A DNA stretch of 64,000 nucleotides from Desulfomicrobium escambiense DSM 10707 (GTDB lineage: Bacteria > Desulfobacterota > Desulfovibrionia > Desulfovibrionales > Desulfomicrobiaceae): positions 1 to 64,000 of the forward strand of contig NZ_AUAR01000006.1 in NCBI RefSeq assembly GCF_000428825.1, given 5' to 3'. Under the pieces are notes generated by a model. That model was not told the DNA's origin, made no database searches, and saw only the letters and a program-made list of their open reading frames with translations. Both the position numbers and the translations under genes were made by a program. Shown one piece after another: positions 32,490 to 36,166 of this stretch. Numbering within the stretch: position 1 is the stretch's first letter; each line of letters begins with the position of its first letter.

Positions 32490-32581
32490 GGAGAGGTGGC
32501 CGAGTCTGGCTTAAGGCGCACGCCTGGAAAGTGTGTGTACCTTAACGGGTACCGGAGGTTCGAATCCTCTCCTCTCCGCCA
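32490..32581 (+). tRNA. tRNA-Ser (GGA anticodon)
   Basis: A 92-base class II tRNA with the CCA encoded. The acceptor GGAGAGG pairs with CCTCTCC; the anticodon loop CTGGAAA gives anticodon GGA. A long variable arm (GTACCTTAACGGGTAC) is typical of serine tRNAs, and the T loop is TTCGAAT. The SRP RNA begins 17 bases downstream, so the two RNAs are probably cotranscribed. Confidence 0.96.
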
Positions 32582-32598
32582 TTTTTGACAAATCAAGC

Positions 32599-32682
32599 GA
32601 AGCCGGGTGGCGGATGCGCTGCCAACCCCGTCAGGTCCGAAAGGAAGCAGCGGTAACAGTTGCTTCCGGGTACCCGGCTTCC
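32599..32682 (+). ncRNA. ffs: Signal recognition particle RNA, small (4.5S) type
   Basis: An 84-base hairpin with GAAGCCGGGT paired to ACCCGGCTTC at its base and the universal Ffh-binding core at the tip: GTCAGGTCCGAAAGGAAGCA with a GAAA tetraloop, then AGCGGTAAC. It guides the Ffh GTPase to nascent membrane proteins. It follows tRNA-Ser closely and is ended by a T-rich hairpin. Confidence 0.96.
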
Positions 32683-32684
32683 CT

Positions 32685-32721
32685 GGCAGGTGCGAAATTT
32701 TTCGCTCCTGCCTTTTTTTTT
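32685..32721 (+). terminator. Terminator of the tRNA-Ser / SRP RNA unit
   Basis: Stem GGCAGG(TGCGAA) / (TTCGCT)CCTGCC followed by nine T residues, directly behind the SRP RNA. Confidence 0.93.
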
Positions 32722-32861: not shown

Positions 32862-33713
32862 GTGACAAAATTCTCAAGCCTGACAGCCGTCATTCTCGGA
32901 CTGGGTCTGCTGTTGCTGACCATGCCCGACCTTGCGGACGCCAAGCGTTTGGGAGGCGGCGGCTCTTTCGGGAGCAGGCCGTCCTATTCGAGAAGCTACC
33001 AGAAGCCGACCGCGCCTTCATCCACACCGACACAACAGGCGGCTCCCGGAGCCTCCCCCATGGGAGGACGCGGGATGTTCGGTGGCATGCTCGGCGGCAT
33101 GCTCATGGGCGGCCTTCTCGGCTCCCTGCTTTTCGGCGGGGGCTTCTCGGGAATTTCCTTCATCGATATCCTCCTCATCGGAGGGGGTCTTTTCCTGCTG
33201 TTCAGGTTCCTGCGCAGCCGCCAACCGATGCCCCAGACTGCCGGCGGTCCGGGGCGGGTTCACGACATGCAGCGCGGAGCCTGGGACAACCTCCGCTCCA
33301 CCCCGCACCAGACGGCTTCCGCTACGGAGAATTATCCACCCGGCTTCGACGCCAAGGAATTCCTGGACGGCGCCAAGGCGGCCTACACGCGCATGCAGGC
33401 CTCGTGGGACGCGCGCGACCTGAACGACCTGAAGCAGTTCACGTCGCCCGAGGTGTTCGCCGAGATCCAGTCGCAGGCCGCGGCCGATCCGGGCCCGGGC
33501 AAGACCGAGATCCTGCTGCTTGAGGCCCGCCTTCTGGAAGTCAAGACCATCGGCAACCAGACCATCGCCACAGTCCTCTTCGACACCATGCTGCGCGAGG
33601 ATTCCCCGGCGGCCCCGGCCGAACAGGTCCGCGAGGCGTGGCACTTCAGCCGCTACGAGACCGGAGGCGGCAGCCACTGGGTCGTGGAAGGCATTCAGCA
33701 ACTGGAGAAATGA
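32862..33713 (+). CDS. Tim44-like domain protein, exported or membrane-bound
   Basis: A 283-residue protein. The GTG start at 32862 is set by an ideal AAGGAGGAATT site; an upstream in-frame ATG has none. A signal-like segment (about 5-28, ending DLADA) precedes a Gly/Ser-rich stretch with GRGMFGGMLGGMLMGGLLGS, a second hydrophobic segment (about 96-115) and a Tim44-like (NTF2-fold) C-terminal domain from about 160 (EFLDGAKAAYTRMQASWDAR). In bacteria such proteins sit at the inner membrane; their role is unknown. The stop overlaps the next start as TGATG. Confidence 0.85.
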   Translation: MTKFSSLTAVILGLGLLLLTMPDLADAKRLGGGGSFGSRPSYSRSYQKPTAPSSTPTQQAAPGASPMGGRGMFGGMLGGMLMGGLLGSLLFGGGFSGISFIDILLIGGGLFLLFRFLRSRQPMPQTAGGPGRVHDMQRGAWDNLRSTPHQTASATENYPPGFDAKEFLDGAKAAYTRMQASWDARDLNDLKQFTSPEVFAEIQSQAAADPGPGKTEILLLEARLLEVKTIGNQTIATVLFDTMLREDSPAAPAEQVREAWHFSRYETGGGSHWVVEGIQQLEK

Positions 33714-33916
33714 TGGACGAGGCCTTCGAGGACGACGCCATTCCCTGCCCACTGTGTGGCAAGCCGGCGCGTATCGTGGGCAGATGAGCCGCGGCGCGCA
33801 TCTCCTGCAGGTTCTGCGGGAGCGATGTCCTGGCCTCGCGATTCAAGGACGAAATTGAAGCATTCAAACAGGGGCTCTGCCGCGGAGACGACGAGCACTC
33901 CGCGCCGGGAACCTGA
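33713..33916 (+). pseudogene. Zinc-ribbon mini-protein interrupted by in-frame TGA: candidate selenoprotein or pseudogene
   Basis: The ATG overlaps the stop of the Tim44-like gene. The frame reads 24 codons with IPCPLCGKPARIVGR, meets TGA at 33785-33787, then continues 42 codons with ISCRFCGSDVLASRF to a second TGA at 33914. The two CxxC pairs that make a zinc ribbon lie on either side of the TGA, so the product makes sense only if it is read through. Fourteen bases after the TGA a hairpin forms (33802-33810 with 33814-33822; apex TGCAGGTTCTGC), close in look to the fdhF SECIS apex of E. coli. Selenocysteine at codon 25 is therefore possible. A nonsense mutation (for example from CGA) is the main alternative, and the hairpin arms are partly forced by the CRFC codons. 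Confidence 0.6.
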
Positions 33917-33950: not shown

Positions 33951-34700
33951 ATGAAAAAAGTCATCTCTCTGGCGGTGTTGCTGTGCTTCATTGCCGGCTC
34001 GGCCATGGCTGCGGCCCCCGAGGCGGCGCTCAAGGCCCTGAGCCTGGGCAACGAAATGTACACCCTCGAAAAGAGCCTCAAGACCAAGCCCCTGGCCATC
34101 GTGGTCATGGACGAGAGCATCGCCCAGGAACCCGCGGCGCTGTTCAATCTCGCGGCAGAACAGGTCGGTGCGGTCCGCGCCCCCTTCGGCGTCGACACGG
34201 GCCTGACCGTCAAGGCCAAGGACATCACCGCGCCGCTGATACTCGTCCTGGGTCTTGACGAAGCTTCCGTCTGGGCCGTGTACGCCAACACCCTGACCGC
34301 GTCCCCCGACCTGATCCATGCCGTGCTCAAGGGCCAGGTCACCGTCCAGGGCGCACTCCTTGACGCCGAAACCGGCGCGGTCAAGATCCTCGGTGCGCAC
34401 CCGGAGCAGCAGACCATGGTCGGCCGCTACCTGCTCGGCATGCCCGCCGAAGCCCCGGCCGCTGAAAATGCCCAGGCCGCCGAGGAAACACCGGCCGCGG
34501 ACAAGGCCGAGCCTGCCGAGGCCCATGCCGACGCCGCAGCACCGGCCGCAGACCATGCCGAACCCGTAGCGGCCGGTCACGACGCCCCCGCTGCCGAGGC
34601 TTCCTCCGAAGGCGGGTCCGGCTTCATGCTCATCATCCTTTTCGTCGTCGCCCTGGTCGGCGCCGTGGTCTTCCTGGACAAGGTCGTCCTCAAGGACTAG
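33951..34700 (+). CDS. Membrane-anchored carbonic-anhydrase-like protein lacking the zinc site
   Basis: A 249-residue exported protein: signal peptide 1-21, a domain to about 165, an Ala/Glu/His-rich linker (about 166-215), then one C-terminal membrane segment ending FLDKVVLKD. The domain follows the beta-carbonic anhydrase encoded at 35168 block by block: APEAALKALSLGNE with SPEQALQMLSEGN, PLILVLGL with PVLMVLGH, and GALLDAETGAVKIL with GAIYDILTGKVRII. Every catalytic position is changed: C77, D79, R81, H130 and C133 of the enzyme become M53, E55, I57, L102 and A105. The helical insert after the second zinc ligand is missing. It is probably a non-catalytic partner. Confidence 0.75.
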   Translation: MKKVISLAVLLCFIAGSAMAAAPEAALKALSLGNEMYTLEKSLKTKPLAIVVMDESIAQEPAALFNLAAEQVGAVRAPFGVDTGLTVKAKDITAPLILVLGLDEASVWAVYANTLTASPDLIHAVLKGQVTVQGALLDAETGAVKILGAHPEQQTMVGRYLLGMPAEAPAAENAQAAEETPAADKAEPAEAHADAAAPAADHAEPVAAGHDAPAAEASSEGGSGFMLIILFVVALVGAVVFLDKVVLKD

Positions 34701-34717
34701 TCCGGCAAACCTGCATC

Positions 34718-35167: not shown

Positions 35168-36166
35168 ATGTTCATCAAGCGTCTTGTCCTGATCCTGCTG
35201 TTCCTTTTGGCCCCGATCGCAGCCCTGGCCTCCTCCGACGCAGCCCACCCGGTCAGCCCGGAGCAGGCGCTGCAGATGCTGAGCGAAGGCAACCTGCGTT
35301 TCGCCCTGGGCCAGTCCACCCACCCCAACACCAGTTTCTCCCGCCGTCTGGTGACCACCACCGACGGCCAGGCGCCTTTCGCCACGGTCATCGCCTGTTC
35401 CGACTCCCGCGTGCCCGTCGAGATTCTCTTTGACCAGGGCGTGGGCGATCTCTTCGTCATCAAGGTGGCCGGCAACGTGGCCGACACGGACGAGATCGGG
35501 TCCGCCGAGTACGGTGTGGACCATCTCGGCACGCCCGTGCTCATGGTCCTCGGGCACACCTACTGCGGCGCAGTCACGGCCGTGACCACCGGCGCCGAAG
35601 TCCACGGCAGCATCCCCAAGCTGGTGGACAACATCGTGCCCGCCGTGGAGAAGGCCAAACACGAGCATCCCGGAGCCGAACAGGCCGAACTCATAAACGC
35701 CGCCATCGAGGCCAACGTCTGGCAGGCTGTGGACGACATCATGACCAAGAGCCACGCCATCGCCGAACGCGCCGCCGCGGGCAAGGTCGTTGTGGTCGGG
35801 GCCATCTACGACATCCTGACGGGCAAGGTACGCATCATCGAACGCACCGAAGCGGCTCCGGCTGCCGCCCACGCGGCCCCCGAGGCCCACGCGGAAGCGG
35901 CCGCAACCGGGAAGGAAACCGCTGCTCATGACGACAAGGCTCCGGCCGAAAAGCACGCCGAGCCCGCCAAGGCGGAAAAGAAGGCCGAGGAGCATGCCGC
36001 CCCCGCCGCAAAGGATGCCGCCCATGACGAAAAGGCAGCGGCCCACGCCGAGGACGGGTCATCCGGCGGCGGCTTCGGTTTCTTCTCCTTCGTCATCTTC
36101 GTCCTGCTGCTCATCGGAGCGGTCTTCATTCTGGACAAGAAGGTCCTGAACCCGGAAGAAAAGTAA
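35168..36166 (+). CDS. Periplasmic beta-class carbonic anhydrase with C-terminal membrane anchor
   Basis: A 332-residue protein: signal peptide 1-22, a beta-carbonic anhydrase domain (about 28-225), a long Ala/Glu/His/Lys-rich linker (about 226-298), then a C-terminal membrane segment (about 304-323) ending FILDKKVLNPEEK. The zinc site is complete: C77, D79 and R81 in ACSDSRVP, and H130 and C133 in LGHTYCGAV. It interconverts CO2 and bicarbonate, here on the outer face of the inner membrane, which could help bicarbonate or CO2 supply. The tail layout is shared with the dead paralogue at 33951, including the FLDK/ILDKKVL end. Confidence 0.93.
   Translation: MFIKRLVLILLFLLAPIAALASSDAAHPVSPEQALQMLSEGNLRFALGQSTHPNTSFSRRLVTTTDGQAPFATVIACSDSRVPVEILFDQGVGDLFVIKVAGNVADTDEIGSAEYGVDHLGTPVLMVLGHTYCGAVTAVTTGAEVHGSIPKLVDNIVPAVEKAKHEHPGAEQAELINAAIEANVWQAVDDIMTKSHAIAERAAAGKVVVVGAIYDILTGKVRIIERTEAAPAAAHAAPEAHAEAAATGKETAAHDDKAPAEKHAEPAKAEKKAEEHAAPAAKDAAHDEKAAAHAEDGSSGGGFGFFSFVIFVLLLIGAVFILDKKVLNPEEK

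Follow-up and report, generated by a model that had tools for sequence, protein, structure and literature searches.

A zinc-ribbon frame with an in-frame TGA

The window, a stretch of 64,000 nucleotides from Desulfomicrobium escambiense DSM 10707, contains on the + strand a predicted selenoprotein gene (33713..33916), delimited from its reading frame and its homologues, which would encode 67 residues with selenocysteine (Sec) at codon 25. The frame begins with the ATG at 33713 and continues through CPLCGKPARIVGR-TGA-AAARISCRFCGSDVLASRFKDEIEAFKQGLCRGDDEHSAPGT-TGA, where the first TGA (33785-33787, + strand) is the predicted Sec codon and the second (33914-33916) is the stop. Another possible start is the ATG at 33710; the second ATG (33713) is preceded by GGAG, located 5 bases 5' of it, and overlaps the stop codon (TGA, 33711-33713) of the upstream gene. 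The latter encodes a Tim44-domain protein (32863..33713, + strand; PF04280, E-value 5.9e-18) and has a presumed GTG start; upstream of it, positions 32490-32689 contain a tRNA gene followed directly by the small SRP RNA. The downstream neighbour (33952..34701, + strand) encodes an exported protein related to the product of a beta-carbonic-anhydrase-like gene at 35168-36166, and the two products cluster by BLAST. The product of 35168-36166 contains both the CSDSRV and HTYCG motifs and that of 33952-34701 contains neither of them, so the first of these tandem related exported proteins may be a catalytically dead paralogue, as judged from the sequence.

The first zinc knuckle, CPLC (33746..33757, + strand), precedes the in-frame TGA and the second, CRFC (33806..33817, + strand), follows it; both Cys pairs are invariant in 59 aligned sequences. 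The frame overlapping the Tim44-like gene, with one knuckle on each side of the TGA, was found just as the original prediction had described it, and the coding-like codon use that it had noted beyond the TGA was borne out. The GC3 of the frame is 0.79 on both sides of the TGA, and a comparison of 11 members of the genus gave in-frame pN/pS values of 0.29 for the part 5' of the TGA and 0.39 for the part 3' of it, versus 1.15–1.18 in the other frames.

Conservation of the TGA column and of the hairpin

When 199 related genomes were searched with X in place of the TGA, 26 clear homologues emerged, all 26 with TGA in the same column; three genus-level relatives gave no match. A profile made from these homologues matched 29 loci, every one with TGA, in 28 genomes that represent 12 genera and 6 families of the class; the next-best matches, which contain no stop, were Cys forms of a sister family, and one genome of the class (G012) had no clade match in the profile search. 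A scan of genome contigs indicated only two Desulfomicrobium MAGs as close named relatives. An even draw across the phylum added 49 further genomes in which the frame contains one in-frame TGA and two in which it has no stop, bringing the genomes with the in-frame TGA to about 77 (28 in the class and 49 from the rest of the phylum). The column was read directly in 63 distinct clade sequences: 61 of them have TGA and the two members without a stop (L147 and L148) have TGC, encoding Cys, exactly at this position. Neither Arg, Trp nor any other residue besides Sec and Cys was found at the column among these 63 sequences. In the sister family, the same column is occupied by Cys in 12 forms and by TGA in 15. 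Thus, the homologue search suggested by the original prediction yielded a column of Sec and Cys accompanied by a conserved hairpin, and the Arg or Trp outcome was not seen.

The predicted SECIS hairpin, CUCCUGCAG-GUU-CUGCGGGAG (33802..33822, + strand), is composed of arms 33802-33810 and 33814-33822, which form nine contiguous pairs, and the loop GUU (33811-33813), whose G comes from the AGG codon of the Arg in the second knuckle. It starts exactly 14 bases 3' of the TGA, as originally predicted, and its loop lies 23 nt from the TGA. As for the bulged-T-like apex proposed at the same time, T33806 can pair with G33818, and among the first 26 relatives nearly all have G or A as the partner base. 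Published limits for bSECIS elements comprise a stem of 4–16 bp, a loop of 3–9 nt with G in its first two bases, a spacing of 16–37 nt and an energy of ≤ −7.5 kcal/mol (PMC13188914); the hairpin of the window (9 bp, loop GUU, spacing 23, −13.5 kcal/mol) lies within all of them. An Rfam search over the window returned no SECIS match, its matches being only two tRNAs and the SRP RNA.

RNAalifold analysis of 26 sequences found the same 9-bp hairpin unprompted, with compensatory changes in five pairs. The share of paired cells was 89.8%, compared to 73.3% in shuffled alignments and no more than 61.6% after sliding of one arm, and the covariation score was 0.512 versus 0.227 in shuffled alignments, a value reached in none of the 500 shuffles. 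Covariation and synonymous-codon shuffles were relied on because dinucleotide shuffling gives the hairpins only modest z-scores (−1.1 for the window). In the synonymous shuffles the hairpin of the window, at −13.5 kcal/mol, contrasted with a mean of −3.2 kcal/mol (p 0.007); the original caution that the Cys codons in part dictate the apex was therefore a fair one, yet the observed hairpin is far stronger than such codons produce on average. The 61 Sec members have a mean of −8.7 kcal/mol versus −3.3 kcal/mol when shuffled, with p ≤ 0.05 in 32 of them. The Arg of the second knuckle is encoded by AGG in all 16 Arg cases among the 26 homologues; elsewhere, AGG accounts for 9% of all Arg codons of the window and, within the same genes, for 28 of the other 101. 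Four Sec members (L015, L019, L023 and L161) have weak hairpins under a simple contiguous-stem model, and a constrained stem search found no such hairpin in the Cys members L147 and L148. An alternative stem (e.g., GGUGAG-GUGU-CUCACC) takes the place of the usual one in seven members (L138, L139, L144, L145, L151, L152 and L162), with its loop 17 nt from the TGA and within the spacing limits of PMC13188914. Five of these (L138, L139, L144, L145 and L162) show a SECIS register shifted toward the UGA, and their adjoining gene looks like topA.

The genome of D. escambiense contains selA, selB and the gene for tRNA-Sec (selC), the test for which had been proposed together with the prediction. Among the 63 genomes checked, 59 contain selA and the remaining four are incomplete; in two genomes (L128 and L132) a selD-like gene follows about 0.4 kb downstream of the selenoprotein gene. 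Coding past the UGA, conservation of the UGA, exchange of Sec and Cys, covariation of the hairpin and the occurrence of the Sec machinery were each shown comparatively.

A lone in-frame stop in one genome would look like decay of a zinc-ribbon gene by nonsense mutation, or like a sequencing error, and the original prediction had allowed for a simple nonsense mutation; the identical type of stop in the identical column in about 77 genomes, purifying selection 3' of it and the covarying hairpin rule this out as an explanation for all practical purposes. The TGA might instead be a true stop, separating two short proteins or closing a regulatory short ORF with the second half separate or unread. 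The very small size of the ORF and its overlap with the Tim44 gene speak for such an arrangement, as does the circumstance that Sec readthrough is predicted from sequence, but the part of the frame past the TGA shows conservation at the protein level and supplies the second knuckle, no start codon is conserved 3' of the TGA and the Cys forms are a single uninterrupted open frame, which makes it highly improbable. Readthrough of the UGA as another amino acid, such as Trp or Arg, has in its favour that the codon by itself does not name the residue; it appears just as improbable, given that all relatives without TGA seen in the clade and in the sister family have Cys, that all well-assembled carriers checked have selA and that the hairpin, which conforms to the bSECIS model, is missing from the Cys forms of the clade. 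The 67-residue zinc-ribbon gene is thus almost certainly, on comparative sequence evidence, a functional selenoprotein gene in which the TGA at 33785-33787 is read as Sec, and the selenoprotein reading put forward originally is upheld by the 61 TGA and two TGC sequences and by the compensatory changes in the hairpin.

The predicted product and its relation to catalogued families

The insertion of Sec and its chemistry can be outlined as predictions. SelB, acting on the hairpin 14 bases past the UGA together with tRNA-Sec, would place Sec at codon 25, and the product would be a 67-residue zinc ribbon, CxxC-x9-Sec-x6-CxxC, probably cytoplasmic. The Sec between the knuckles, in the setting of an invariant Gly (G-R-U-A-x-A-R), would be the reactive group. 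Six columns are invariant among the 59 sequences, namely the four Cys, the Sec/Cys position and one Gly. AlphaFold models were of low to moderate confidence (pLDDT 64 and 74), and a fold search of the PDB revealed nearest solved folds that were mostly zinc ribbons (RNA polymerase subunits, LysW, YfgJ and ZifS), none of them significant; a PDB sequence search gave nothing useful. Given this level of model confidence and of fold similarity, metal binding is put forward as an inference: a single metal ion is probably bound by the four Cys.

The geometry of the clade is that of NF041197 (CxxC_Se_CxxC, dual CXXC motif small (seleno)protein; hypothetical protein OS_HP3, motif RxU). The likeness comprises the arrangement CxxC-x9-U/C-x6-CxxC, the small size, a hairpin across the second knuckle and the exchange of Sec and Cys, but the window protein has GRU instead of RxU and does not contain the C-terminal LANxPCDR-type motif. 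It scored 29.8 bits against NF041197 with Sec taken as Cys and 21.6 bits with Sec taken as X, below the cut-off of 40; two clade members exceeded this cut-off (42.9, and 41.6 with the N-terminus of the query trimmed). In a tree of 90 sequences, based on as few as 52 columns and stable at this fork, the window clade and the canonical NF041197 clade were split at 100/99. The same genome has a separate canonical NF041197 gene with TGA (G000:C36:132904-133062), and the canonical paralogue of another genus member (L070, G004:C1:11667-11825) has TGC, encoding Cys, and retains the hairpin (−13.9 kcal/mol), which looks like a recent replacement of Sec by Cys. By sequence, the window clade is the sister of NF041197, an already catalogued, uncharacterised selenoprotein family.

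A 2026 review placed both OS_HP3 (RxU) and hypothetical protein DW (GxU) under NF041197 (PMC13188914). The 2025 deep-Sep paper predicted DW in Desulfosarcina sp. BuS5 and D. widdelii, reported TGA and Cys homologues of it, and found nothing new in Desulfomicrobium orale (PMC12013277). The GxU motif fits the invariant G-x-U of the clade, which is G-R-U in the window, with Gly invariant in 59 rows, and D. widdelii also has OS_HP3, resembling the two-paralogue pattern found here. Since the clade has GxU, it is probably DW, matched by motif and by published description rather than by sequence. The novelty originally claimed for this selenoprotein therefore holds for a separate clade, but one that sits beside the known NF041197 and was probably predicted as DW in 2025.

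Two further zinc ribbons show a partial resemblance. The Lar restriction alleviation zinc ribbon (PF14354/TIGR03655) has a similar CPxCG ... CxxCG layout, and its models matched weakly (E-values 0.00059 and 0.0091), with scores under the cut-offs (20.5 versus 28.6 bits for PF14354 and 16.3 versus 39.6 bits for TIGR03655); unlike for Lar, no phage or restriction context was seen around the gene. No Lar protein is known to carry Sec. The FmdB-family selenoprotein (TIGR02605) is likewise reported to be a zinc ribbon with Sec, but its Sec is within the knuckle (UxxU, PMC13188914), whereas that of the window protein is located between intact knuckles.

Gene neighbourhoods and dissimilatory sulfite reduction

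Within Desulfomicrobium, the gene is located between the Tim44 and carbonic-anhydrase-like genes and adjoins Tim44, not dsr. The neighbours vary between families, and one common gene neighbourhood was accordingly rejected as a functional clue. Using NCBIfam assignments of the dsrA, dsrB, DsrO, DsrP and DVU0298 neighbours, DsrP/DsrO were found beside the gene at eight loci of other families and dsrA/dsrB at two, and a pair of TPR and DVU0298-family genes adjoins it at 11–12 loci in five families; in one genome (G446) dsrA is about 5 kb away. At two loci (L157 and L165) the gene is directly 5' of dsrAB on the same strand, with the TPR and DVU0298-family genes divergent on the other side; at eight others it faces DsrP.

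All 17 carriers in the phylum sample have dsrA, compared to 69 of the 141 genomes of the sample (p 1.7e-6, shared ancestry being ignored), and the association spans ten families; most dsrA genomes do not have the gene. The use of Sec does not explain the association, because nearly all sampled genomes have selA, and within the selA-positive genomes the p-value is 3.1e-6. A literature search found no zinc-ribbon selenoprotein tied to dsr. In the phylum sample the gene is present only where dsrA is, and in several families its neighbours include dsrAB, dsrOP and DVU0298-family genes; together these observations suggest an accessory part in redox chemistry or in the handling of chalcogens or metals. 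The leading functional guess, albeit a weak and tentative one, is an accessory role in dissimilatory sulfite reduction. That the clade is a dedicated Sec-dependent accessory of this pathway in the sulfate reducers of the phylum, e.g., a chalcogen or metal relay for DsrAB/DsrC or DsrMKJOP, is a more specific reading and a rather doubtful one.

Perhaps the function is tied not to sulfite reduction but to the Tim44-like membrane protein, i.e., to protein handling at the membrane. The overlap of the two genes in the window points in this direction, as do the Tim44 neighbour in most members of the genus and the nearby Tim44 gene in some members of another family (f2); elsewhere in the phylum the gene adjoins dsr genes, topA, selD or others without Tim44, and the connection seems unlikely to account for the function.

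The family is not unprecedented, and the novelty lies in the breadth of the clade, the covariation of the hairpin, the exchange of Sec and Cys within the clade and the link to dissimilatory sulfite reduction. Beside a family catalogued only as hypothetical, there is now a widespread and well-supported selenoprotein clade with TGA in about 77 genomes. It provides an example of Sec placed between two intact zinc knuckles and of a Sec-to-Cys replacement coupled with the absence of the SECIS, and it offers a connection of selenium with dissimilatory sulfite reduction that can be tested; if the clade were a dedicated accessory of that pathway, selenium would directly support sulfite respiration.
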